A DNA stretch of 27,196 nucleotides from a virus: the IMG/VR virus record IMGVR_UViG_3300033145_001000, positions 1-27,196 of that record. One strand, written 5' to 3'. The notes under the pieces were generated by a model that was not told where the DNA came from, ran no database searches, and was given only the letters and a program-made list of their open reading frames with translations. This document shows positions 17,875 through 26,918 of this stretch, piece by piece. Made by a program: the position numbers and the translations under genes. Positions within the stretch are counted from its first letter, which is position 1, and each line of letters begins with the position of its first letter.

Positions 17875-17944
17875 TGGTGGAGATGAGGCGAGTTGAACGC
17901 CTGTCTTGCTGTTGTACTAGTAGCAATCTATACCCATCATCCCC
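17875..17944 (-). ncRNA. 70-nt tRNA-like RNA with encoded CCA and no D stem (tmRNA tRNA-domain-like)
   Basis: Minus strand. A 7-bp acceptor stem GGGGATG/CATCTCC, discriminator A and encoded CCA enclose a 5-bp T stem AGGCG/CGCCT with loop TTCAACT. GAC joins the T arm to a 5-bp stem TTGCT/AGCAA with an 11-base loop. The 5' part ATGGGTATAGA cannot form a D stem. The order (GG-containing stemless D loop, GAC linker, TTCAACT loop, ACCA end) resembles the tRNA-like domain of tmRNA rather than a tRNA, but there is no tag-coding or pseudoknot part between the acceptor strands. It could be a minimal aminoacylatable RNA, a decayed tRNA, or an attachment-site copy of a host RNA gene. Confidence 0.5.
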
Positions 17945-18025: not shown

Positions 18026-18106
18026 CTTACCCCACCCACTAGGAGCGAACTGTGGAGTTGAACCACTGTCTGTCAATAGACCGTTCTACCGTTGAACTAT
18101 GGTAAG
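18026..18106 (-). ncRNA. tRNA-like element with canonical D and T hairpins but odd geometry
   Basis: Minus strand. A perfect D arm GTTC-AACGGTA-GAAC (18083-18097) is followed by GTCT-ATTGAC-AGAC and a T-type hairpin GTGG-TTCAACT-CCAC (18052-18066). The 5' CTTACC (18101-18106) does not pair with the bases after the T arm but with GGTAAG (18026-18031), about 20 bases further on. The anticodon-like loop has 6 or 8 bases, not 7, and the distance between D and T arms is too short for a tRNA. No CCA. Possibly a degenerate tRNA or a module of a bigger RNA. Confidence 0.35.
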
Positions 18107-18113
18107 CATTTTA

Positions 18114-18224
18114 CTGGGCAGGGGGATTCAAACCCCATTATGGGAGGTTTCTGGGATGTCCGTCATCAAAACCTTCGTCTCTAGGAATAACTCCATCACC
18201 GAGACTCCACGGCATTCTGTCCAG
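18114..18224 (-). ncRNA. Cloverleaf-like RNA element, about 111 nt
   Basis: Minus strand. CTGGACA (18218-18224) pairs with TGCCCAG (18114-18120) with one mismatch, like an acceptor stem. Inside are GTCTC/GAGAC, a nested hairpin in which AGGTTT/AAACCT encloses GATG-ACGGA-CATC, and a T-type hairpin GGGG-TTTGAAT-CCCC (18122-18136) directly next to the 3' strand. The four-way layout is tRNA-like, but the arm sizes are wrong for any standard tRNA and no anticodon can be assigned. Confidence 0.35.
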
Positions 18225-18420
18225 CATTTTGTAGGTTGAGGATGCCTTGTTTACCTTTGCTAGCGTCCTAGACCAAAAGACCGATGAGGCAAAAGCTCTT
18301 CCCTACATATATATATCCGAAAACATGCCTCTAGCCCTGTTAAACACAGGTCGCATTCTGTCAATTTGTTGTTTAAAAACTGCGTATATTACTATAAATA
18401 GCTATAATATAGCTATAAAT

Positions 18421-18612: not shown

Positions 18613-18790
18613 CTGTTAAGACAGTGTTAAGGAAACCATATAAGTGCTTTTCTCCCTGCTGCAGTAGGGGTTTCCCCCAACCCCAACCCCGTAGATTTGT
18701 TAAGTTATGGGTAAAGTTTTCCCATGTTTTCGCCAATTTAAATTAACAGCAACAACAGTAGGTAGACACTAGTCCCGTTTAACTTAACAG
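18613..18790. repeat. Dispersed TGTTAAG motifs (iteron/operator-like)
   Basis: The core TGTTAA occurs at about 18614, 18625 and 18698 in direct orientation and, as TTAACA, at about 18744 and 18784 in reverse. Two copies (TGTTAAGTT 18698-18706 and AACTTAACA 18781-18789) form a 9-bp inverted pair. Five copies in under 180 bp of non-coding DNA is more than expected by eye. Likely a protein-binding site set; replication initiator or regulator cannot be told apart. Confidence 0.45.
18707..18725. promoter_or_regulatory. Distal GGGTAAA inverted-repeat site
   Basis: ATGGGTAAAGTTTTCCCAT has 5-bp perfect arms ATGGG/CCCAT and the centre TAAAGTTTT. It shares the GGGTAAA-GTT-CCC pattern with the two abutting copies at 18887-18914, about 180 bp nearer the sigma-54 promoter. 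Likely a binding site of the same regulator. Confidence 0.55.
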
Positions 18791-18883: not shown

Positions 18884-18886
18884 GGT

Positions 18887-18914
18887 GGGTAAAAGTTACC
18901 CGTAAAGTTTACCC
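18887..18914. promoter_or_regulatory. Two abutting GGGTAAA inverted repeats, putative activator sites
   Basis: GGGTAAAAGTTACCC (18887-18901) is a perfect 6-bp dyad with centre AAG. It runs directly into CCGTAAAGTTTACCC (18900-18914), whose core GTAAAGTTTAC is a perfect odd palindrome. They end about 120 bp upstream of the -24/-12 promoter, the usual distance for sites of sigma-54 enhancer-binding proteins, and are helically close to each other (about 13 bp centre to centre). Alternatively they are repressor operators. Confidence 0.6.
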
Positions 18915-19036
18915 AATTATGAGTATTTCCAAACAGAATTGAGAGCAAAACACCGAGCAGATTATTTTTAAAAAAATTTTTTAGGCTTGTATTTATCAGG
19001 GTTTCTTTCAATTCTAAAAATAAATTTTAGTCATTC

Positions 19037-19052
19037 TGGCACGAAATTTGCA
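19037..19052 (+). promoter_or_regulatory. Sigma-54 (RpoN) -24/-12 promoter of the early operon
   Basis: TGGCACGAAATTTGCA matches the consensus TGGCACG-N4-TTGCA at every fixed base. GG (19038-19039) and GC (19050-19051) are separated by exactly 10 bases, as required. The predicted start is about 19062-19064, so the transcript would begin at or next to the ribosome site GGAGGTG and have a leader of only about 12-15 bases before the ATG at 19076. A hairpin CTAAAA-ATAAA-TTTTAG (19014-19030) and an A-tract lie just upstream, where DNA bending would help an activator reach the polymerase. Confidence 0.85.
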
Positions 19053-19075
19053 CTTATAGAGTGGAGGTGTAAAAA

Positions 19076-19351
19076 ATGAATGAATTAAAAGAGTACAAGC
19101 TTTACTTTGAAGTAAACAAACAGCAGGACTTGAAAGAAGTACAACAGTTTATATCTACTATTTGCAAGGGTGCAACACTCCAGCAAGCAACGGGCTTATG
19201 GTGTGGTGTATGGTCTCATAGTTTTATTCTAACAGTCATTGGTAGTTGTAAGCTCAATGAGATTAAAGAGCTTGCCATAGCAATTAAAAAGCAATACCAA
19301 CAGCAAGCGGTGTATGTAACAGTTGCAAGTGTAAAGGGTGGTCTATTATGA
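19076..19351 (+). CDS. First early gene: small alpha/beta protein, function unknown
   Basis: 91 residues; ATG with GGAGGTGT. Predicted order strand (YKLYFEV), helix (DLKEVQQFIST), strand, strand (SFILTVIGSC), helix (LNEIKELAIAIKKQY), strand (AVYVTVAS): a ferredoxin-like beta-alpha-beta-beta-alpha-beta plan. Such compact folds are frequent in phage-encoded inhibitors and nucleic-acid binders, but no family is recognised. As the first gene of the sigma-54-driven transcript it should be made earliest and most. Ends with a 4-base overlap with the next gene. Confidence 0.75.
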   Translation: MNELKEYKLYFEVNKQQDLKEVQQFISTICKGATLQQATGLWCGVWSHSFILTVIGSCKLNEIKELAIAIKKQYQQQAVYVTVASVKGGLL

Positions 19352-19596
19352 TAGGAACTAAAAAAGATATATTAAAAAGAACTAAAAAAATGATACTAAC
19401 AGCATGTGAAAGAAAGGCAAATAAAGAGATAAAAGACAATGAAGCTCTTTTACTCCTGCGGTTGTTTACTGCTCTATTGCAGGAATACAAAGAAGCTATA
19501 ATAATAGAACAATATGCAAAAACAAACAATATAAAATTTAATAAAGCAAAAAATGCAATTTATTCTAAAATGATAGAAAGCACAAAGGGGGTGTAA
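19348..19596 (+). CDS. Basic helical hypothetical protein
   Basis: 82 residues, overlapping the previous stop by ATGA. Lys-rich N-terminus (MIGTKKDILKRTKKMI), a central hydrophobic helix (ALLLLRLFTALLQEY), then a basic C-terminal helix. All-helical and positively charged, so it may bind nucleic acid or dimerise. No family recognised. Confidence 0.65.
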   Translation: MIGTKKDILKRTKKMILTACERKANKEIKDNEALLLLRLFTALLQEYKEAIIIEQYAKTNNIKFNKAKNAIYSKMIESTKGV

Positions 19597-19597
19597 A

Positions 19598-19936
19598 ATG
19601 AAGCAGTCAGATATGAAAAAAACCGCAACATACCGTGAGATAGAAAAACTTAAGAGTTGGGGTCGTGAGCGGTCATATAGGTCTGAATTCACTAACTATG
19701 CACCCAATACAGCGTGGAATTTTAAAATCATAACGGGGCGGTATAAGAAAGATAAAAAGCTTTATAGCAAATTCAAGGTACTAACATATAACAGTATAAA
19801 ACGACTTTATAAAAAGTATGGAAATAGGAAATTTAAGATAGCCAGCAATGAGATTAAAATTGAACAATACGGTAGAACGCATTACAGCGTGTATATAAAC
19901 AATGAGCACTTTATATTGGCAGGTCATAGAGTATGA
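19598..19936 (+). CDS. Highly basic hypothetical protein
   Basis: 112 residues; AAAGGGGGTG before the ATG, one base after the previous stop. Very rich in Lys, Arg and Tyr with alternating beta strands in the second half (KFKVLTYNSIKRLYKKYG, KIEQYGRTHYSVYIN). The charge suggests nucleic-acid contact. No domain recognised. Confidence 0.65.
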   Translation: MKQSDMKKTATYREIEKLKSWGRERSYRSEFTNYAPNTAWNFKIITGRYKKDKKLYSKFKVLTYNSIKRLYKKYGNRKFKIASNEIKIEQYGRTHYSVYINNEHFILAGHRV

Positions 19937-20013
19937 AGGCAAGTTATATTGCAATTAGTGGGCTTGTAGGTTATATGATATTTTTTATTTGGTGTTTAAT
20001 ATATCTTATATGA
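19933..20013 (+). CDS. 26-residue single-span membrane peptide
   Basis: ATG overlaps the upstream stop as ATGA. The peptide starts MKASYIAISGLVGYMIFFIW and is almost wholly hydrophobic with one Lys near the N-terminus, so it should insert in the inner membrane. One of four tiny membrane proteins in this operon. No own ribosome site; coupling expected. Function unknown. Confidence 0.5.
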   Translation: MKASYIAISGLVGYMIFFIWCLIYLI

Positions 20014-20030
20014 CAGCACCGAATTTTAAA
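20014..20030 (+). repeat. Intergenic motif copy 1 (AGCnnCGAATTTT)
   Basis: CAGCACCGAATTTTAAA immediately follows a stop codon. Closely related copies follow the next two stops at 20191-20209 (ATAGCCACGAATTTTTAAA) and 20433-20449 (ATAGCTACGAATTTATA). Confidence 0.6.
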
Positions 20031-20059
20031 AAAATAAATAATAATAAAGGGGTGTAAAA

Positions 20060-20191
20060 ATGAACTTTAGAGATGTATTGCAAGAAGCAATTTTAAAAGA
20101 GCAGTTACTGCAAGAGATGCAACGCCAGCAAGAAGTAGATAGCATTGAGGAAATTTGCAAATGGTATGGTATTGATAGCATTGAGGCATAA
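20060..20191 (+). CDS. 43-residue Gln/Glu-rich helical protein
   Basis: ATG with AAAGGGGTG. The first 28 residues make an amphipathic helix (MNFRDVLQEAILKEQLLQEM), followed by a repeated DSIEE/DSIEA element around CKWYGI. Acidic, probably dimeric. No family recognised; gene reality rests on the conserved leader and spacing. Confidence 0.55.
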   Translation: MNFRDVLQEAILKEQLLQEMQRQQEVDSIEEICKWYGIDSIEA

Positions 20192-20209
20192 TAGCCACGA
20201 ATTTTTAAA
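20191..20209 (+). repeat. Intergenic motif copy 2
   Basis: ATAGCCACGAATTTTTAAA directly after a stop, then the standard leader of the next gene. Confidence 0.6.
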
Positions 20210-20226
20210 AAATAAGGGGGTGTAAA

Positions 20227-20433
20227 ATGAAGTATGCAAAAGATGCGTTAAGCTGGCTCTGGACAGGACACCGACTTACAGCCATAAGAAGTTTTCAAAA
20301 ATCCGATATGTCCGACATAGAAGCTATGAAGTTTATAAGAACCTTAAGCCACAAGGAATTGCTGGACTTTGCAATTTTAGGTTATTATTCAAGAAGTGAA
20401 TATATAGAAAACTCAAAGAAATTGATATTTTAA
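20227..20433 (+). CDS. Small helical hypothetical protein
   Basis: 68 residues; AAGGGGGTG before ATG. Helices around KDALSWLWTGHRLTAIRSFQ and DIEAMKFIRTLSHKELLDFAIL, with Trp/Tyr-rich surfaces. No family recognised. Last gene before the internal sigma-70-type promoter. Confidence 0.65.
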   Translation: MKYAKDALSWLWTGHRLTAIRSFQKSDMSDIEAMKFIRTLSHKELLDFAILGYYSRSEYIENSKKLIF

Positions 20434-20449
20434 TAGCTACGAATTTATA
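20433..20449 (+). repeat. Intergenic motif copy 3
   Basis: ATAGCTACGAATTTATA after the stop of the 68-residue gene and just before the -35 box at 20454. Confidence 0.6.
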
Positions 20450-20453
20450 GCTA

Positions 20454-20481
20454 TTGACAAAAAAAAATAAACTGCTATAAT
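20454..20481 (+). promoter_or_regulatory. Sigma-70/SigA-type promoter
   Basis: Perfect TTGACA (20454-20459) and perfect TATAAT (20476-20481) with a 16-base spacer rich in A. Lies in an 83-bp gap between genes, upstream of the gene at 20517. It would transcribe the rest of the early operon independently of the sigma-54 promoter. No operator dyad is evident. Confidence 0.85.
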
Positions 20482-20516
20482 AAAGAAGTAAAAATAAATA
20501 ATAAAGGGGTGTTAAA

Positions 20517-20771
20517 ATGAAAGTATTCAAATTAAATGATGAGTATTCGGTGGCTTGTGAGTTTCACGGAACAAGAAATGGCTTCAAGCATACAGCGGTA
20601 TTACTTCATAAGAATAGAGCTGGGAATAGCGTTGAAGTTGACAGGTGTAAAGTAAACTATTATAATAGAACGTGGGAACGCTACGAATTCAGGACTGTAT
20701 TAATAAAAATGATAGACAAATATTTTAAAAAAGATGATATTTTAAGAGAGTTTTTTCTGGGGGGTGTATAA
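20517..20771 (+). CDS. Small basic hypothetical protein
   Basis: 84 residues; AAAGGGGTGTT leader. First gene after the consensus promoter. Beta-rich N-terminal part (YSVACEFHGTRNGFKHTAVLL) and a C-terminal helix (FRTVLIKMIDKYFKKDDIL). Basic overall. No family recognised. Stop overlaps the next ATG (TAATG). Confidence 0.65.
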   Translation: MKVFKLNDEYSVACEFHGTRNGFKHTAVLLHKNRAGNSVEVDRCKVNYYNRTWERYEFRTVLIKMIDKYFKKDDILREFFLGGV

Positions 20772-21049
20772 TGAAAGTAGATTATAGTAACCTTTATTTT
20801 AACGAAAAATTGCTATGTGAAATCAACGGGAAAAGTTGGAGTTTTAGTATTGAATTAAACGATTTTTATGGAAATCCTGACTGTAAAGTCGGGGATTTTT
20901 CAAACAATGAGTGGTTCAGAACGCCTTATGGAGTTAAGGGGTTAAAATATACTACCGTAAACAGATTAAAAAGAGCAGTTGAAAAGACATTGTTAAGCAA
21001 GAGTAGGTTTTATGTTTGCAATATCCGTTGGGTTTCAACGGATAGATAG
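20771..21049 (+). CDS. Hypothetical protein
   Basis: 92 residues. Mixed beta with aromatic residues (NGKSWSFSIELNDFYGNPDC, NNEWFRTPYG) and a C-terminal basic helix plus strand. Ribosome site GGGGGGTG lies within the end of the upstream gene. No family recognised. Confidence 0.65.
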   Translation: MKVDYSNLYFNEKLLCEINGKSWSFSIELNDFYGNPDCKVGDFSNNEWFRTPYGVKGLKYTTVNRLKRAVEKTLLSKSRFYVCNIRWVSTDR

Positions 21050-21071
21050 CTATAAAAATGGGGGTGTTTAA

Positions 21072-21260
21072 ATGCAAAAATATTACACTGCAAAGCAATT
21101 ATTAAAAAAGTATGATGGGAAATATATTGATACTTATCCACATCATTATGAACGCTGGAACGATAAAACACATCAATATGTAACGGTTTATGAGGTTAGG
21201 GGTGTCTCTAAAACCATAAAAGAGAATTATAATTTGCCACAGGACTGTATTATTGAATAA
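21072..21260 (+). CDS. Small Tyr/His-rich hypothetical protein
   Basis: 62 residues; GGGGGTGTTT leader. Starts MQKYYTAKQLLKKYDGKYID, then a His/Tyr/Trp-rich turn and a strand YVTVYEVRGVSKTI, ending LPQDCII. Compact alpha/beta. Resembles small orphan proteins seen in phage early regions, but no function known. Confidence 0.65.
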   Translation: MQKYYTAKQLLKKYDGKYIDTYPHHYERWNDKTHQYVTVYEVRGVSKTIKENYNLPQDCIIE

Positions 21261-21280
21261 ACAAAAATGGAGGTGTTAAA

Positions 21281-21520
21281 ATGAGAGAGCTTACAAAAAA
21301 GCAAAAAAGGATACTTGATTTATGGTTCAATAAGCATAAAAATGAACTTCAAGCAGGAATATGTTTTTTCCAATTAGACAAATGCGATTTTTTTAGCAAT
21401 GAATTGTATGAAAAATTGGAAAAGATACACGACACGGAGATTTTATATCAAAGCATAAATAGATATATATCCGACAAGGGAATGAATGCGACTTATAACA
21501 ATAAGCCGTGGTTAAGATAA
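21281..21520 (+). CDS. Small helical hypothetical protein
   Basis: 79 residues; TGGAGGTGTT leader. Basic N-terminal helix (LTKKQKRILDLWFNKHKNEL), then helices with many aromatic residues. No family recognised. Confidence 0.65.
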   Translation: MRELTKKQKRILDLWFNKHKNELQAGICFFQLDKCDFFSNELYEKLEKIHDTEILYQSINRYISDKGMNATYNNKPWLR

Positions 21521-21534
21521 AATGGAGGTGTCAA

Positions 21535-21717
21535 ATGATTAAAAAAGACAGTGGAAAAATAGTTTGGGATATGCTTAAATCGCAATATAAGCCACTTGAA
21601 AAAGCATTTTTAAAATTGGTTAAAGATGAGCCAAAGACCATTAAGACATACAAAAAATTGTCTTATATGCAAAAAATAATTTTGTTAGATAAGATAGCTA
21701 CAAAAATAAATTTATAA
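21535..21717 (+). CDS. Small basic helical protein
   Basis: 60 residues from the ATG at 21535, chosen over an upstream in-frame start at 21508 because GGAGGTG precedes it and the longer form would overlap the previous gene. Lys-rich, all helix (KPLEKAFLKLVKDEPKTIKT). No family recognised. Confidence 0.65.
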   Translation: MIKKDSGKIVWDMLKSQYKPLEKAFLKLVKDEPKTIKTYKKLSYMQKIILLDKIATKINL

Positions 21718-21730
21718 AGGGGGTATTAAA

Positions 21731-22036
21731 ATGAAAAAAACAATTAATAGTTATGATTTTCACAAAGGTTTTGAAGAGTTGCGACCTAATAATTTTAGCT
21801 ATAATGGACTTGAGGCACTCTTTAATTTTTTAGAAGAGTGGGAAGAAGATACAGGAGAAGCAACGGAATTTGATGTTATTAGTCTTTGCTGTGATTATTC
21901 GGAGTATAAAAACGCAGTGGAGGCGGTTAAAGATTATTCAGGGGAAGAAATGACAGAGAAAGAGGCATTAGAATATTTGCAAGATAAAACAATAATAATT
22001 GAATTTGATGGCGGTATTATTGTTCAAAGTTATTAA
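21731..22036 (+). CDS. Widespread acidic phage/plasmid protein of unknown function
   Basis: 101 residues; AAGGGGGTATT leader. The pattern INSYDFHKGFE..., EALFNFLEEWEEDTGEATEF, DVISLCCDYSEY, then a C-terminal strand pair is familiar from small proteins found on many gut phages and mobile elements, none with an assigned role. Very acidic, which could mean DNA mimicry, but this is speculation. Two adjacent Cys at the core. Confidence 0.75.
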   Translation: MKKTINSYDFHKGFEELRPNNFSYNGLEALFNFLEEWEEDTGEATEFDVISLCCDYSEYKNAVEAVKDYSGEEMTEKEALEYLQDKTIIIEFDGGIIVQSY

Positions 22037-22048
22037 GGGGGTGTAAAG

Positions 22049-22411
22049 ATGAAAGAAATAAAAAGTTATGATTTACTCGGAAGCGTAGAAGTCTCGTTTT
22101 GGGGCGGTGGCATAGGTTGGATATGGCTTGCCATACATACGACAAAAGAGGGACTTAAAGAAATTGAAAAAGTGCCATTGCAGGATTTCTCACAATTTGG
22201 AGTGGAAAGTGTGGACTATGCAAATTTTGAGGTTTTTGAAAAATCCGAAAGAGTTAAAAATGGAGTATATATAAAAACAGAGACAATTGACCCAATTAAA
22301 ATAATTGAAGCGGGAAAGTCAAAATTAAACAGGGATAGACAGATAGAAAAAGAGGAAATGTTTAATGGCTGTTATGAGGATATATACTATAAATATTGGC
22401 AGGGAAGATGA
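22049..22411 (+). CDS. Hypothetical protein
   Basis: 120 residues; AAGGGGGTGTAAAG leader. N-terminal beta region with a Gly/Trp run (SVEVSFWGGGIGWIWLAIHT), a middle acidic part, and a charged C-terminal helix. No family recognised. Its stop overlaps the next start. Confidence 0.65.
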   Translation: MKEIKSYDLLGSVEVSFWGGGIGWIWLAIHTTKEGLKEIEKVPLQDFSQFGVESVDYANFEVFEKSERVKNGVYIKTETIDPIKIIEAGKSKLNRDRQIEKEEMFNGCYEDIYYKYWQGR

Positions 22412-22656
22412 TGAGTGGAAAAAAACTTTATGAGGTTATTAATGAGGCATTGTGGAGATTAAACTCCGAAGAAATGGAAGACAATTCAGGGCTATATACT
22501 GCTGGAGACATTTTTCAAAACTACACTTGTGATGATATTATGAAAATGCTAACAGACCATAAAGGAGATAAGGGTGCTACTTGGATTTCTCTCAAAAATA
22601 AAAATGGTAAAGAGATATATTTTGCCGAGTATGTTCTCGGCTGGGGATTACTATAA
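22411..22656 (+). CDS. Small protein, paralogue A1 (GKxLYEVINEAL family)
   Basis: 81 residues. Upstream ATGs (22396, 22408) exist, but 22411 aligns exactly with the start of its paralogue at 25607. Shared features: GKxLYEVINEALxxLNS, FQNYT, a short helix with ML, WxSLxNxxGxE and AE near the end. Helix-strand architecture, about 80 residues. Function unknown; duplication suggests a dose or specificity role. Confidence 0.7.
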   Translation: MSGKKLYEVINEALWRLNSEEMEDNSGLYTAGDIFQNYTCDDIMKMLTDHKGDKGATWISLKNKNGKEIYFAEYVLGWGLL

Positions 22657-22669
22657 GGGGAGGTGTGAT

Positions 22670-23218
22670 ATGTATTATAGAGTGAAGGATTTGCAATATT
22701 GGGGATATTTGTCAGATATTTCAGATACGCCGACACTTTTTGGCTCTAAAGAAGAGGTTATAAAGGCATTGGCAGATTATCACAATAGCGATTTCTCTGG
22801 TGTAAGAGATGATGATACTCCATACGAAAACATTTTTGAATTCCTTGCTACACTCAAAAATGAACAAGAACGATTAGAATTCTTGCTGGAACACGGACAG
22901 TGGGAATTAGAAGAGGTGGATATTTTTATAGCAGAGGAAAAAATAAAGGGCTATGATGATAGCTTTTGGTATAATGGATTTATTGCAGAATATAAAAATG
23001 CTAAACTTTATGCTTTAGGAGAAATAAAAGTTGCAGGCAAATATCCGACAACGGAAGACGAATTAGATAAACTGTATGAACTTGGAAAAATTGAGAACAA
23101 TAATTGGTTTGAAATTCTATACACAGATAAAGACGGATATGAGCATAGTCGTGTGTGTGGCTCTGGGTATGAGGGGTCTTTGGCAGAATTGATAGATGTC
23201 GGAAACGGAGAGGTGTGA
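22670..23218 (+). CDS. Acidic hypothetical protein, largest of the early genes seen complete
   Basis: 182 residues from the ATG at 22670, which has GGGGAGGTGTG; in-frame codons upstream lack a ribosome site. Starts MYYRVKDLQYWGYLSD; a middle with many Asp/Glu (QWELEEVDIFIAEEKIKGYD); C-terminal FEILYTDKDGYEHSRVCGSG. Strongly acidic over its whole length, like DNA-mimic antirestriction proteins, but no ArdA or Ocr motif is seen, so this is a guess. Confidence 0.7.
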   Translation: MYYRVKDLQYWGYLSDISDTPTLFGSKEEVIKALADYHNSDFSGVRDDDTPYENIFEFLATLKNEQERLEFLLEHGQWELEEVDIFIAEEKIKGYDDSFWYNGFIAEYKNAKLYALGEIKVAGKYPTTEDELDKLYELGKIENNNWFEILYTDKDGYEHSRVCGSGYEGSLAELIDVGNGEV

Positions 23219-23219
23219 T

Positions 23220-23369
23220 ATGACCTTTTATATTGCCATTATTATTGGAATTGTGGCTATATGGAGTTTTGCTTGGGCTTTGTGTTTTCACTACGTATCT
23301 ACTTGGAAAATTCTTGACAATGTCAGGAACTACCTTGTGGAGACATATATACAAAACAAAATTATATAA
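23220..23369 (+). CDS. 49-residue membrane protein
   Basis: ATG after GGAGAGGTGTG, the start nested at the previous stop. Residues 2-27 are hydrophobic (MTFYIAIIIGIVAIWSFAWA), one membrane span, followed by a charged cytoplasmic or outer tail. Function unknown. Confidence 0.6.
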   Translation: MTFYIAIIIGIVAIWSFAWALCFHYVSTWKILDNVRNYLVETYIQNKII

Positions 23370-23378
23370 GGAGGAGAA

Positions 23379-23636
23379 ATGAAAGGAATTAGAGTTTTTA
23401 AAGCAGAGGAAAATGGATTTGTTGACTACACAGTCATTATTGATGGCAATGCTTATGCTATGGACTTACACCCGTTAAGGTATCGTGGAATAAATCAATA
23501 CTGTGGAACAAAAGAAGAGCTTAATTTGAATAGAAAACTTTGGAAAGAAGTGCGTATCGGAGACCTGTCAGCAGAGATTAAAAAGGCAATATTTATGCGT
23601 TTAAATAATGGGGGAGAAGATGAAGAGCGGAATTGA
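23379..23636 (+). CDS. Hypothetical protein
   Basis: 85 residues; AAGGAGGAG leader. Beta strands (IRVFKAEENGFVDYTVIIDG), a conserved-looking HPLRYRG, then a helix (SAEIKKAIFMRLNN). No family recognised. Overlaps the next small gene by 17 bases. Confidence 0.65.
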   Translation: MKGIRVFKAEENGFVDYTVIIDGNAYAMDLHPLRYRGINQYCGTKEELNLNRKLWKEVRIGDLSAEIKKAIFMRLNNGGEDEERN

Positions 23637-23700
23637 GTTTATCATTGGTTTGTTATTGCTTGGTATTATTGGTTTTATAATAATGACTTATCCAATTTAA
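23620..23700 (+). CDS. 26-residue membrane peptide
   Basis: ATG after GGGGGAG. The sequence MKSGIEFIIGLLLLGIIGFI is followed by a short tail; a single membrane span with one basic residue at the N-terminus. Same size as the peptide at 19933 but different sequence. Confidence 0.5.
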   Translation: MKSGIEFIIGLLLLGIIGFIIMTYPI

Positions 23701-23713
23701 AAGGAGGTGTAAG

Positions 23714-23923
23714 GTGAATAATAGGATTATAGAGTGGAGTAAAAACATTGCAGAGAATTACAATGACGAAACTCAAACAAATATATTGGAAGAATTGAGG
23801 GTGGCATCGGAAGAGATGGGACTTGATTTTGTGGAAATTGACAAACGATGGCAATATTTCACCGCAGGAGAGTATGTTAAATGGGAGGATATAGCATATC
23901 TTTTAACAGGAAAGGAGGTGTGA
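23714..23923 (+). CDS. Small acidic hypothetical protein (GTG start)
   Basis: 69 residues; GTG start with AAAGGAGGTGT. Helical first half (IEWSKNIAENYNDETQTNIL), then FVEIDKRWQYFTAGEYVKW. No family recognised. Confidence 0.65.
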   Translation: MNNRIIEWSKNIAENYNDETQTNILEELRVASEEMGLDFVEIDKRWQYFTAGEYVKWEDIAYLLTGKEV

Positions 23924-23924
23924 G

Positions 23925-24251
23925 GTGAATAAAAAGCTGGTTTTTGTTGAAACGGACAGCCCCGTAGGCGAGTGGGAACTGCCCTCTGTTGTTAAGGTTC
24001 GGAATTGTTCATCGCCGATGAGTGTTGTGGAGTTAAATGAAAGGGTTTATGTTTTCGGAGAATTAGACCCTGATGAGAGAGAACTTGTTAAAAGATGTTT
24101 TACAGGAGAGCTTAAATTGCTTCCTGTCCGTCTTGGTTGGAGGGATTGGGAGTTAGTAAAAGATGGCGTAATGATACACGATGACCACGAAAGAACTTAT
24201 ACTATTTATGTGGAAAAGGATTATACAGCCCCGAAAATAAAAGGAGTATGA
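23925..24251 (+). CDS. Hypothetical protein (GTG start)
   Basis: 108 residues; GTG with AAAGGAGGTGTGAG, one base after the previous stop. Beta-rich, with several Pro and Glu-Leu-Pro turns (SPVGEWELPSVVKVRNC, ERVYVFGELDPDERELVKRC) and an acidic His-containing end (VMIHDDHERTYTIYVEKD). No family recognised. Confidence 0.65.
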   Translation: MNKKLVFVETDSPVGEWELPSVVKVRNCSSPMSVVELNERVYVFGELDPDERELVKRCFTGELKLLPVRLGWRDWELVKDGVMIHDDHERTYTIYVEKDYTAPKIKGV

Positions 24252-24252
24252 G

Positions 24253-24477
24253 ATGAACGATTTATTTTATATGGATATGGGAATTGGACTTAAAATTGCC
24301 CGAACTATATCTCTTATTATGGGTTTTGCTATAATTATAGGATTTATTCTTATTGTTGTCGGAATTATTATTGAACAAATAGTAGAAGAAATAGAGGCAG
24401 AAAGCGGGATAGCGTGGGAAATAACAAAAATGTTTAAGAAAATATATGCAGAATATTTTAAAAATAAGGAGATGTAA
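24253..24477 (+). CDS. Small single-span membrane protein
   Basis: 74 residues; AAAGGAG before ATG. A long hydrophobic stretch at about 14-42 (ISLIMGFAIIIGFILIVVGI) and then an acidic-to-basic cytoplasmic helix (EEIEAESGIAWEITKMFKKIY). Could act at the envelope, for example in superinfection exclusion, but only the topology is seen. Confidence 0.65.
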   Translation: MNDLFYMDMGIGLKIARTISLIMGFAIIIGFILIVVGIIIEQIVEEIEAESGIAWEITKMFKKIYAEYFKNKEM

Positions 24478-24479
24478 TA

Positions 24480-24692
24480 ATGGAAACAGATGAAGAAAAG
24501 AGAAAAGCAGAGTTTCATAAAATGAGAGAGGACTACTATGAGGCATTTATATTTAAAGTTAAATGTGCGTTTAATGATTGTAATTGCACCAATGGAGAAG
24601 AGTTTGAACAGGAGCTTCGGAGAATTTGTATAAACTATGGCATAGACTGGAAGATACTATCCCCTTATTACAATAAGGGAGGTGTAAAGTGA
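24480..24692 (+). CDS. Small Cys-containing helical protein
   Basis: 70 residues; AAGGAGATG leader. Helical and charged; four Cys (CAFNDCNC and RRICINYG) could bind a metal, but spacing does not match a known finger. Its 3' end contains a hairpin over the next gene's ribosome site. Confidence 0.6.
   Translation: METDEEKRKAEFHKMREDYYEAFIFKVKCAFNDCNCTNGEEFEQELRRICINYGIDWKILSPYYNKGGVK
24662..24679 (+). promoter_or_regulatory. Hairpin overlapping a ribosome binding site
   Basis: CCCTTATTACAATAAGGG is a perfect inverted repeat (arms of 6-8 bp). Its right arm contains AAGGG of the site AAGGGAGGTG for the GTG start at 24689. In free mRNA the site would be masked; a ribosome finishing the upstream gene (stop 24690-24692) would open it. 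Confidence 0.5.
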
Positions 24693-24847
24693 AAATCGAA
24701 ATTGAGGATAACCTCATAACCTTGAGGTATAAAGACAAGGAGAAATATAAAGATGACAAAGAGGAGAATAGGGAAATTGTTGACAATACAATAGAGTATG
24801 AAGATGAATATATAATTAATATTATACAAAAAGGAGGTGTCAAATGA
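24689..24847 (+). CDS. 52-residue highly charged protein (GTG start)
   Basis: GTG overlapping the upstream stop; site AAGGGAGGTG. Begins MKIEIEDNLITLRYKDKEKY; more than half the residues are Lys, Glu or Asp. Its end MIIQKGGVK is encoded by the next gene's leader, and the stop overlaps the next start as ATGA. No family recognised. Confidence 0.55.
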   Translation: MKIEIEDNLITLRYKDKEKYKDDKEENREIVDNTIEYEDEYIINIIQKGGVK

Positions 24848-25260
24848 AATTAGAATTAGAAGCCCAAGTATGCAATTTGAAATTGTCAAAGAAATTAAAA
24901 GAGCTTGGAGTTAAGCAAGAAAGTAATTGGTATTGGTATGATATTGTTGGAAAAAGTGAAAAAGAACAAGAAGATAGTGCACATTTAGGCGATGCTGATT
25001 ATGTTCTTGAATTTAAGACATTTAGACCATATTTTGCTACATTTACAGTTGCCCAACTTGGAGAGATGTTGCCAGACGGGATGCAAAGTAATCGCATTGA
25101 TTACCCCGATAAGAAAATATGGCATTCTTGGGCTTGGAATTTTAAACCCTCATTTTTTGCAAAAACCGAAGCCAATGCCAGAGCTAAAATGCTTATCTAT
25201 CTTTTAGAAAACAATTTTATAAAGGAGGTGTCTAATGAAAGTAGTAGAGATTTTTCTTGA
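24844..25260 (+). CDS. Conserved phage protein of unknown function
   Basis: 138 residues; AAAGGAGGTGTC leader. Pattern LSKKLKELGVKQESNWYWYD, then ELGEMLPDG-like QLGEMLPDGMQ, WAWNFKP, and the C-terminal helix TEANARAKMLIYLLENNFI. Proteins of this type, with the same LGVKQES...WY start and AxAKMLIYLLEN end, are common in gut phages and have no assigned role. Overlaps the next gene by 26 bases, because the last nine codons coincide with its ribosome site and start. Confidence 0.75.
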   Translation: MKLELEAQVCNLKLSKKLKELGVKQESNWYWYDIVGKSEKEQEDSAHLGDADYVLEFKTFRPYFATFTVAQLGEMLPDGMQSNRIDYPDKKIWHSWAWNFKPSFFAKTEANARAKMLIYLLENNFIKEVSNESSRDFS

Positions 25261-25387
25261 TGATTTAAAGGATGAAAAGCGAAAGGAGCTTTTAGAGGTA
25301 GTAGGTGTAAAAGAAGAAGATGCTGGAAATTGGGGCGTTGTGCCAATAGCTTCTCTGGAATTTGAGGATGAACGAGATGAAATATAA
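25235..25387 (+). CDS. 50-residue acidic conserved protein
   Basis: ATG with AAAGGAGGTGT. MKVVEIFLDDLKDEKRKELL, then GNWGVVPIASLEFEDE. The short VEIFLDDL-helix-NWxVxPIA plan is seen in many small proteins of phages and conjugative elements, role unknown. Overlaps both neighbours. Confidence 0.65.
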   Translation: MKVVEIFLDDLKDEKRKELLEVVGVKEEDAGNWGVVPIASLEFEDERDEI

Positions 25388-25610
25388 GAGATGTTCTAAT
25401 TGCGGGGCTATTTTAGATAGCATAGACAAGATGGGAATAGCTGCGTATGGATATATGGATGTGGATATAGAAAGCGGCGAAGATGTTGGCTTTCATTTCA
25501 ATGGCAGAGCTGAATACTATTGTAAAAACTGCGATTTCTTGTTAGGTGAAACATACACGGATATGCAAGATTACTGTAATAAACTACAAAACAAGGAGGA
25601 AAGATTATGA
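25377..25610 (+). CDS. Zinc-ribbon protein, paralogue B1
   Basis: 77 residues from the ATG at 25377, which aligns with its paralogue's start; an earlier in-frame ATG (25362) would only add MRMNE. CSNC (C6, C9) and CKNC (C49, C52) make a four-Cys zinc ribbon, with a strand-rich insert between and an acidic C-terminal helix. May bind nucleic acid or a host protein. Same family as the gene at 25856. Confidence 0.7.
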   Translation: MKYKRCSNCGAILDSIDKMGIAAYGYMDVDIESGEDVGFHFNGRAEYYCKNCDFLLGETYTDMQDYCNKLQNKEERL

Positions 25611-25843
25611 CAGGAAAAGAGCTTTATGAAGTAATAAATGAGGCATTGGGGAAACTTAATTCATCGGAAGCAATATATGATGCGAAATTGTATTTCTCCA
25701 AAACAGAATTCCAAAACTATACGGTAGAACAAATCGTAGAAATGTTAAAGAAGAATAAGGGGAGCAATCACAAAAGCTGGCTTTCGTTAGACAATCAAGA
25801 TGGACAAGAAGGCTACTGTGCGGAATTTATCATTATTGAATAA
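25607..25843 (+). CDS. Small protein, paralogue A2 (GKxLYEVINEAL family)
   Basis: 78 residues; AAGGAGGAAAG leader, ATGA overlap with the previous gene. Begins MTGKELYEVINEALGKLNSS and shares FQNYT, WxSLxNxxGxE and AE with the protein at 22411. Lies between the two zinc-ribbon paralogues. Confidence 0.7.
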   Translation: MTGKELYEVINEALGKLNSSEAIYDAKLYFSKTEFQNYTVEQIVEMLKKNKGSNHKSWLSLDNQDGQEGYCAEFIIIE

Positions 25844-25855
25844 AGGAGGTGCAAA

Positions 25856-26140
25856 ATGAAGTATCTTAAATGTAAGCATTGTGGAAAGGTTCTTGACAAT
25901 CTTGATTTAATTGGTTTCTCGGAAAATGGAGACCAAACTTGGAAATTTTTTAACAGCGATGGAGAGATTGTTTGGGAGCGTAATGAATTTTATTCTGGAA
26001 ATGATGCAGGTGTATTTTATTGCAAGGAGTGTGGGAAAGAAATAAGGAAAGATTATAATGATATGGTGGGCTATTTAGATAAACTTGCAGAGGAGGAGGA
26101 AAAACGTGAAAAGGATAGTATGCGAATTAAGGAAAAATAG
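25856..26140 (+). CDS. Zinc-ribbon protein, paralogue B2
   Basis: 94 residues; AAAGGAGGTGC leader. CKHC (C6, C9) and CKEC (C56, C59) zinc ribbon; similar to the protein at 25377 in the first 15 residues and around the second Cys pair (FYCKECGKEIRKDYNDM), with a longer middle loop containing two Trp and a Lys/Glu tail of about 20 residues. Confidence 0.7.
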   Translation: MKYLKCKHCGKVLDNLDLIGFSENGDQTWKFFNSDGEIVWERNEFYSGNDAGVFYCKECGKEIRKDYNDMVGYLDKLAEEEEKREKDSMRIKEK

Positions 26141-26345
26141 GGTATGCCGACATACGTTTTTTGATAATTATGGGAAAAGTTCTCTACTAATCTGGGAATA
26201 CTTGGGTAAATATTACACACTTTACTCAAATTCAAGATGGTCAGAGAAACAGCCGTCAATTTTCTCTACTCTAAAAACTCTAAAAAAATATATAGAGCAA
26301 AGAGGCAGTGGATTTGACAAAAATCAAAAAATCATTATACTATAA
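26106..26345 (+). CDS. Basic hypothetical protein (GTG start)
   Basis: 79 residues from GTG at 26106, chosen because GAGGAGGAGG lies 5-6 bases upstream; the frame is open further back but without a site. Overlaps the previous gene by 35 bases. Basic N-terminus (MKRIVCELRKNRVCRHTFF), middle strand pair (SSLLIWEYLGKYYTLYSNS), basic end. No family recognised. Confidence 0.6.
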   Translation: MKRIVCELRKNRVCRHTFFDNYGKSSLLIWEYLGKYYTLYSNSRWSEKQPSIFSTLKTLKKYIEQRGSGFDKNQKIIIL

Positions 26346-26358
26346 GGAGGTATAAAAG

Positions 26359-26643
26359 ATGAAACAAATAATTAACGGGAAACAATATAACACAGAAACA
26401 GCAATTTTAGTTGCAAGTAATAACTATTGGGATGGTCATAATTGGGAGAGGGGTGGACGAAATACTTTTTTATACAAAACTAAAAAGGGAAATTTCTTTC
26501 TTTATTACGCTACATTGTGGCAAGGGGAAAGAGATTATATAGAGCCAATTTCTACAAATGAAGCGAAATATTATTATGAGAATTTACCTGAACACCCCAT
26601 AAAGTATAAAGAGGTGTTTGGCGTAGAACCTGAAGAGGCATAA
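26359..26643 (+). CDS. Conserved mobile-element protein of unknown function
   Basis: 94 residues; AAGGAGGTATAAAAG leader. Plan: KQIINGKQYNTETAILVASN, then RNTFLYKTKKGNFFLYY, then STNEAKYYYENL and a C-terminal helix ending FGVEP. Small proteins of the INGKxYxTETA...LYxTKxGxFFLY type are common on Firmicutes plasmids, ICEs and phages; none has a known function. Confidence 0.75.
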   Translation: MKQIINGKQYNTETAILVASNNYWDGHNWERGGRNTFLYKTKKGNFFLYYATLWQGERDYIEPISTNEAKYYYENLPEHPIKYKEVFGVEPEEA

Positions 26644-26918
26644 TGTTAGGAGTTATGTATCAGGAGTTGAAAAGGACATTTGACAGCCCCGAAGAATTTT
26701 GTGAGCTGGTTGACGAAGATACTTACAAAAGGATACTTGAGAGGGGTTTTGTTGGAATAGTAAGCTCTACTAATTGGAACTTACTTGACCTTCACGAATA
26801 TATGGCAAGGGAGATTATAGAAAAAATATATGAAAGGAGGAGATATGGAAAGAAGAAGAACGATGCTAATGGGATTACCAAGTTCTGGGAAAACAAGGTT
26901 GGTAGTGAGTCAGTTTGA
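26643..26918 (+). CDS. Hypothetical protein
   Basis: 91 residues; the start overlaps the upstream stop (TAATG). Helical: YQELKRTFDSPEEFCELVDE, then LHEYMAREIIEKIYERRRYG. It overlaps the ATPase gene by 74 bases, so the last ~24 codons (from GKKKNDANG) share DNA with that gene. No family recognised. Confidence 0.55.
   Translation: MLGVMYQELKRTFDSPEEFCELVDEDTYKRILERGFVGIVSSTNWNLLDLHEYMAREIIEKIYERRRYGKKKNDANGITKFWENKVGSESV

Follow-up and report, generated by a model that had tools for sequence, protein, structure and literature searches.

The window, by which we mean the whole stretch of DNA analysed, is a 27,196-base IMG/VR virus record with 36% G+C; it is probably a fragment, and statements about the whole genome are therefore limited. 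Structural genes (tail, head, protease, portal, and TerL) occupy the minus strand, and a long gap separates them from many small plus-strand genes without known function. Within this 1.2-kb gap, on the plus strand at 19037 to 19052, lies the 16-mer TGGCACGAAATTTGCA, a -24/-12 (sigma-54-type) promoter element that matches all 12 specified bases of TGGCACG-N4-TTGCW without a mismatch; its GG (19038 to 19039) and GC (19050 to 19051) are exactly 10 bases apart, as the -24/-12 core demands. No open reading frame (ORF) of at least 40 amino acids covers the element, which points at the ORF starting at 19076, whose start codon follows at a workable distance of 24 bases and is preceded by GGAGG. In sequence, coordinates, strand, spacing, and noncoding position, the element is exactly as the initial annotation described it. 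It occurs once in the window and is the only site there with fewer than two mismatches, the next best having two. Under a first-order Markov model an exact match would be expected 0.0026 times per window, counting both strands, and 0.00016 times inside the gap; the per-window figure is optimistic, because the motif was chosen by a reader among many possible ones. A search of viral_contigs with the exact 18-base element TCTGGCACGAAATTTGCA gave no match. A sigma-70 promoter overlapping the element (CTGGCA-15-TAGAGT) was considered and rejected as weak.

The first ORF downstream (19076 to 19351, 91 amino acids) matches phrog_16022, a family of unknown function, weakly; the second (19348 to 19596, 82 amino acids) overlaps it by 4 bases and the third (19598 to 19936, 112 amino acids) follows directly, neither with a family match. 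A short candidate ORF (20060 to 20191) precedes a small ORF of 68 amino acids (20227 to 20433); all of these are on the plus strand. No further gene intervenes before the first perfect sigma-70-type promoter, TTGACA-16-TATAAT, whose -10 box is preceded by TG (20454 to 20481, upstream of the ORF at 20517). A second perfect promoter, TTGACA-17-TATAAT, lies within that ORF (20638 to 20666 in 20517 to 20771), and an 11/12 match, TTGACA-16-TATACT, at 26314 to 26341; all three face the plus-strand direction, and about 0.06 perfect sigma-70 promoters would be expected in the window by chance. Upstream of the first early gene no good site resembling TTGACA-16/18-TATAAT was found; the best candidate 5′ of 19076, the rival promoter TTGAGA-18-TATTTT (18939 to 18968, plus strand), matches 9 of 12 positions and ranks about 98th in the window, and the perfect ones occur only further downstream.

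Most of the early genes are probably transcribed from the promoter at 20454 to 20481, and the early region as a whole looks sigma-70 driven. Since near-perfect sigma-70 promoters at 20454, 20638, and 26314 are available to the other early genes, at most about five small genes would need TGGCACGAAATTTGCA, namely those from 19076 to 19936 and perhaps to 20433. A fold after 19936 was not clearly better as a terminator than shuffled sequence (z, -1.8), and read-through is therefore possible. The description of the gene run as an operon of about 33 genes was overstated: the plus-strand run does exist and holds some 28 to 30 plausible ORFs up to the window end, but with two perfect (12/12) and one 11/12 sigma-70 promoters inside it, the proposal that TGGCACGAAATTTGCA drives the whole early operon is not supported. 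A repeated unit, AGC(C/A/T)(A/C)CGAATTT, stands 5′ of successive early genes (20010 to 20037, 20188 to 20215, and 20434 to 20455); the last copy forms a dyad, AATAGCTA...TAGCTATT, which overlaps the -35 box of the perfect sigma-70 promoter and is a possible operator. Homology of TGGCACGAAATTTGCA to the repeated unit AGCNACGAATTT, found upstream of 20060, 20227, and 20517, was rejected, as the stretch they have in common, ACGAA-TTT, is short and in a different register.

Neither TerL nor the ORF at 19076 led to close relatives in viral_contigs, genome_contigs, or isolated phages, and no relative was found in the bacterial species genomes of genome_contigs. Alignments of distant TerL proteins were the only route to relatives, of which G001 (L004/L084/L085, 49.6 kb; TerL, 52%) is the nearest and G003, G004, and G005 are more distant. 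Structural proteins of the window are for the most part 32 to 52% identical to those of G001; on the early side the ORF at 26830 is the sole one with a counterpart. G001 has the same divergent layout, with a gap of 1.4 kb that holds a dyad different from those of the window. As in the window, its promoter for the first early gene lies by the long divergent gap, but it is a perfect TTGACA-16-TATAAT (L004 3016 to 2989, minus strand), whereas the window has a -24/-12 element and no good sigma-70 site there; four further perfect sigma-70 promoters in G001 face the early direction. No exact sigma-54 site occurs in its 49.6 kb, and the sole near match, with one mismatch, lies in the structural region. 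The element is thus not conserved at the corresponding place, a sigma-70 promoter standing there instead, and by the test that the initial annotation itself had proposed (a search for the element in related phages) this counts against a sigma-54 promoter, although the early genes are hardly conserved between the two phages.

At sigma-54 promoters the transcript starts 11 to 14 bases after the -12 GC. From this geometry the start would be predicted at 19060 to 19064, most closely at about 19063, 12 nucleotides after the -12 C, which is the first base of the Shine-Dalgarno sequence GGAGG (19063 to 19067, plus strand). With the ATG at 19076, the leader would be about 13 nucleotides long, in agreement with the earlier proposal of a start on the ribosome site and a very short leader. 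A leader beginning inside the Shine-Dalgarno sequence would be close to the minimum for translation, which counts against the sigma-54 reading. In G001, however, three perfect sigma-70 promoters (L084 2917, 3483, and 8683), read from their sequences, put the start within or immediately ahead of GGAGG, so that the leader measures about 11 bases; because the start falls at the same spot there, the short leader of the ORF at 19076 is no objection. The sigma-70 promoter at 26314 in the window likewise starts at the GGAGG of the ORF at 26359, with a leader of about 11 bases, and short leaders are a habit of this phage group. The GGAGG belongs to a ribosome-site cassette of this phage, (G)GGAGGTGTAAAATG, that recurs nearly unchanged before many early genes of the window from 19063 to 26859.

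The most serious alternative is that the match is due to chance and that host sigma-70 polymerase transcribes the first early genes, as in G001, from the weak promoter at 18939 to 18968 or from another nonconsensus promoter in the AT-rich stretch from 18960 to 19030. We consider this unlikely, though it carries appreciable weight: in G001 a perfect sigma-70 promoter, likewise following an A/T-rich run, occupies the equivalent position, consensus sigma-70 promoters serve other early genes in both phages, and the element was selected at the first stage among many windows and motifs. Against it, the sole sigma-70 candidate 5′ of 19076 is ordinary, as its rank in the window indicates, and a spacing control argues that most of the exact sites with correct placement in viral contigs did not arise by chance. 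For this control, viral_contigs was scanned for CTGGCACG-N3-TTTGCA, the exact form found in the window, and for the same pattern with one spacer base more; gene calls came from a simple script, so that the classification as intergenic is rough. Among the matches listed, 16 of 80 with the real spacing were intergenic and 13 of 80 had a start codon within 200 bases downstream, compared with 3 of 81 and 1 of 81, respectively, for the control spacing (13/80 versus 1/81; Fisher P = 0.0006). With probable host flanks (L171, L213, and L220 were set aside as such) and duplicates removed, 7 remained versus 1 (P = 0.027, again among the matches listed). Genes 3′ of the surveyed sites include those for scaffold and coat proteins (L188), a portal (L232), and a tail fibre and head protease (L179).

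When GGAGG and ATG were required downstream of the element, a further scan found at least 37 stretches, some of which lie within other genes. Loci selected independently of the motif (2.4 Mb) contain eight exact sites at a gap of 4 bases and zero or one at gaps of 1, 2, 3, 6, and 7; about seven of the eight are distinct, four lie in L043, and most are not near a start codon. When one mismatch was allowed, there were 44 sites at the 4-base gap versus 15 to 33 at the others, an excess that is only about twofold. The expectation of 0.0026 for the window, the 13 of 80 versus 1 of 81 among the matches listed, and the preference for the 4-base gap together exceed chance and depend on the spacing, and the recurrence suggests that exact -24/-12 sites in viral contigs are not a single oddity.

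Several other phages carry more than one such site. Three virus-labelled records have some of their sites directly before the ribosome sites of small genes: L444 (record G020), in which consecutive small genes are preceded by three exact sites; L449 (G022), with four exact sites; and L447 (G021), where nineteen sites with no more than one mismatch have the 4-base gap and very few have another. No activator is encoded in the records of these three. Exact matches in the multisite phage loci occur at the 4-base gap only, and a whole-record count over ten such records gave 29 exact sites (13 of which were the bait) versus 0 for the reversed pattern. A 30-kb record (L409/L410; G009) has seven exact and several near sites resembling TTTGGCACGNTNTTTGC, many of them antisense within genes, and their number is too many for ordinary promoters. 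In phiEt88-like environmental phages, sites stand directly before successive head genes (L411 of G008, 5476 and 8945; L412 of G006, 5652 and 5977). The isolated relatives of these head-gene phages (phiEt88, DIBBI, PfAn1, and Meifeng) contain no exact sites, and hence no cultured model was found.

These patterns bear on a second alternative, that the site is bound without being the main promoter, either by sigma-54 holoenzyme or another protein, as a repressing or timing closed complex or an operator, or that it serves as promoter for a factor specific to the phage that recognizes a similar sequence. In its favor, no enhancer-binding protein was found in the phage records with such sites that were searched, numerous sites of G009 and L447 fall within genes or antisense to them, where ordinary promoters would not be needed, and the gaps of about 45 bases around the L444 sites leave little room for upstream activator sites. 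The 12 specified bases with a fixed 4-base gap are, however, the sigma-54 consensus, and many sites are immediately followed by a ribosome site and a start codon, and we regard this alternative as improbable. That the element is a relic acquired with host DNA and now out of use, as its single copy in the window and its absence from G001 might indicate, is very improbable, given that no mismatch has accumulated, that its position relative to the ribosome site is intact, and that no host-like gene adjoins it.

Sigma-54 promoters are silent until a signal-responsive AAA+ enhancer-binding protein remodels the polymerase. Upstream of the element lie the dyad TGGGTAAAAGTTACCCGTAAAGTTTACCCA (18886 to 18915), centred about 155 to 170 bases before the predicted start, and a related dyad, TGGGTAAAGTTTTCCCA (18708 to 18724), about 347 bases before it. 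These GGGTAAA dyads, a pattern picked after the fact, would fit candidate enhancer sites at 155 to 350 bases, or operators or origin repeats. The possibility of a phage-encoded activator, raised in the initial annotation, found no support: a search for AAA+ proteins with PF00158 found none in the window or in G001, G003, G004, and G005, records that are partly fragments and for which the host may supply the factor, and none in another 21 phage records, the majority of them with sigma-54-type sites. The window does not encode rpoN, and no copy was found in the phage records examined. If the promoter works, its activator is most likely that of the host.

Taken together, we consider it probable that TGGCACGAAATTTGCA is a genuine -24/-12 promoter, and this is the best reading because gene-proximal sites are enriched in viral contigs in a spacing-specific manner and because the short-leader geometry fits. 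Of the original proposal, a sigma-54 promoter of the early operon, the first part thus stands as the preferred interpretation, while control of the whole operon is not supported, given the sigma-70 promoters in the window and the one at the first early gene of G001. The element with its position and spacing, its chance expectation, the sigma-70 promoters as sequences, and the recurrence of such sites in other viral contigs are observed directly; from them we infer the use of sigma-54, the start site, a host activator, and a purpose, as follows. Host sigma-54 RNA polymerase would use a functional promoter at 19037 to 19052 and would remain there in a closed complex, to be opened by a host AAA+ enhancer-binding protein that may bind the GGGTAAA dyads; a short-leader transcript from about 19063 would then extend over the first small early genes (19076 to about 20433) and possibly beyond. 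The first gene cluster, rather than the whole early region, would follow a host physiological signal, and the other early genes would be transcribed from their separate consensus sigma-70 promoters.

In its TGGCACG-N4-TTGCW core, GG-to-GC spacing, position 5′ of a start codon, and possible upstream dyads, the element resembles bacterial sigma-54 (RpoN) promoters; it differs from them in lying in a phage early region, in being predicted from sequence, and in a very short leader beginning in the Shine-Dalgarno sequence. It shares the short-leader habit with other early promoters of the group, which are of the sigma-70 type. The nearest precedent in concept comes from phages of Alphaproteobacteria, in which promoters controlled by CtrA and a "lytic deferment" have been shown experimentally (PMC9437464); there, too, phage genes are wired to a global regulator of the host through sites in the phage genome, but CtrA is a DNA-binding response regulator, whereas the window would rely on an alternative sigma factor and is a prediction only. 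The sole phage-borne link to sigma-54 in the literature searched is a sigma-54-like protein proposed for Pectobacterium phage Q19 (HHpred probability, 94%; E value, 0.67; PMC7693777), which is a weakly supported protein similarity and not a promoter; no such protein was found in the window. Other reports concerned host RpoN regulons and rpoN as a host factor, and this search, which was not exhaustive, found no account that treats sigma-54 promoters of phages as a class.

Our observations hint at phages whose gene expression is coupled in part to a stress or nutrient circuit of the host. We put forward tentatively, and with less confidence than the reading of TGGCACGAAATTTGCA itself, that uncultivated tailed phages repeatedly use host sigma-54 promoters as a regulatory class so far overlooked: one to several exact sites would precede small early-type or head genes in unrelated phages that encode no activator, and their program would be partly gated by host enhancer-binding proteins responding to nitrogen, carbon, or envelope-stress signals, as a counterpart of CtrA-based lytic deferment. 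If a gene set does stand behind a sigma-54 promoter, infection would depend on the nutrient or stress state of the host, and such gating would amount to a decision system without lysogeny. The question can be tested in any cultured phage with such a site.

The window also contains tRNA-like pieces on the minus strand. One is an element of 70 nucleotides (17875 to 17944) with an encoded CCA end, a 7-bp acceptor stem with a G3-U70 pair, and a T arm, and with no clear D stem. It scored 39 bits (E value, 1e-13; gathering score, 47) with the Rfam tmRNA model, the 318 positions of the message part being missing; ARAGORN reported nothing for it, and its predicted free fold does not restore a cloverleaf. 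It looks like the tRNA-like domain of a tmRNA on its own. Further pieces lie at 18051 to 18099 and about 18117 to 18231; one gives a weak score of 21.5 bits with the tRNA model and shows D and T arms but a shrunken anticodon arm, and another has the T-arm-like sequence GGGGTTTGAATCCCC. Nothing resembling them was found in the gap of G001, and they may be degenerate tRNA genes or mimics.
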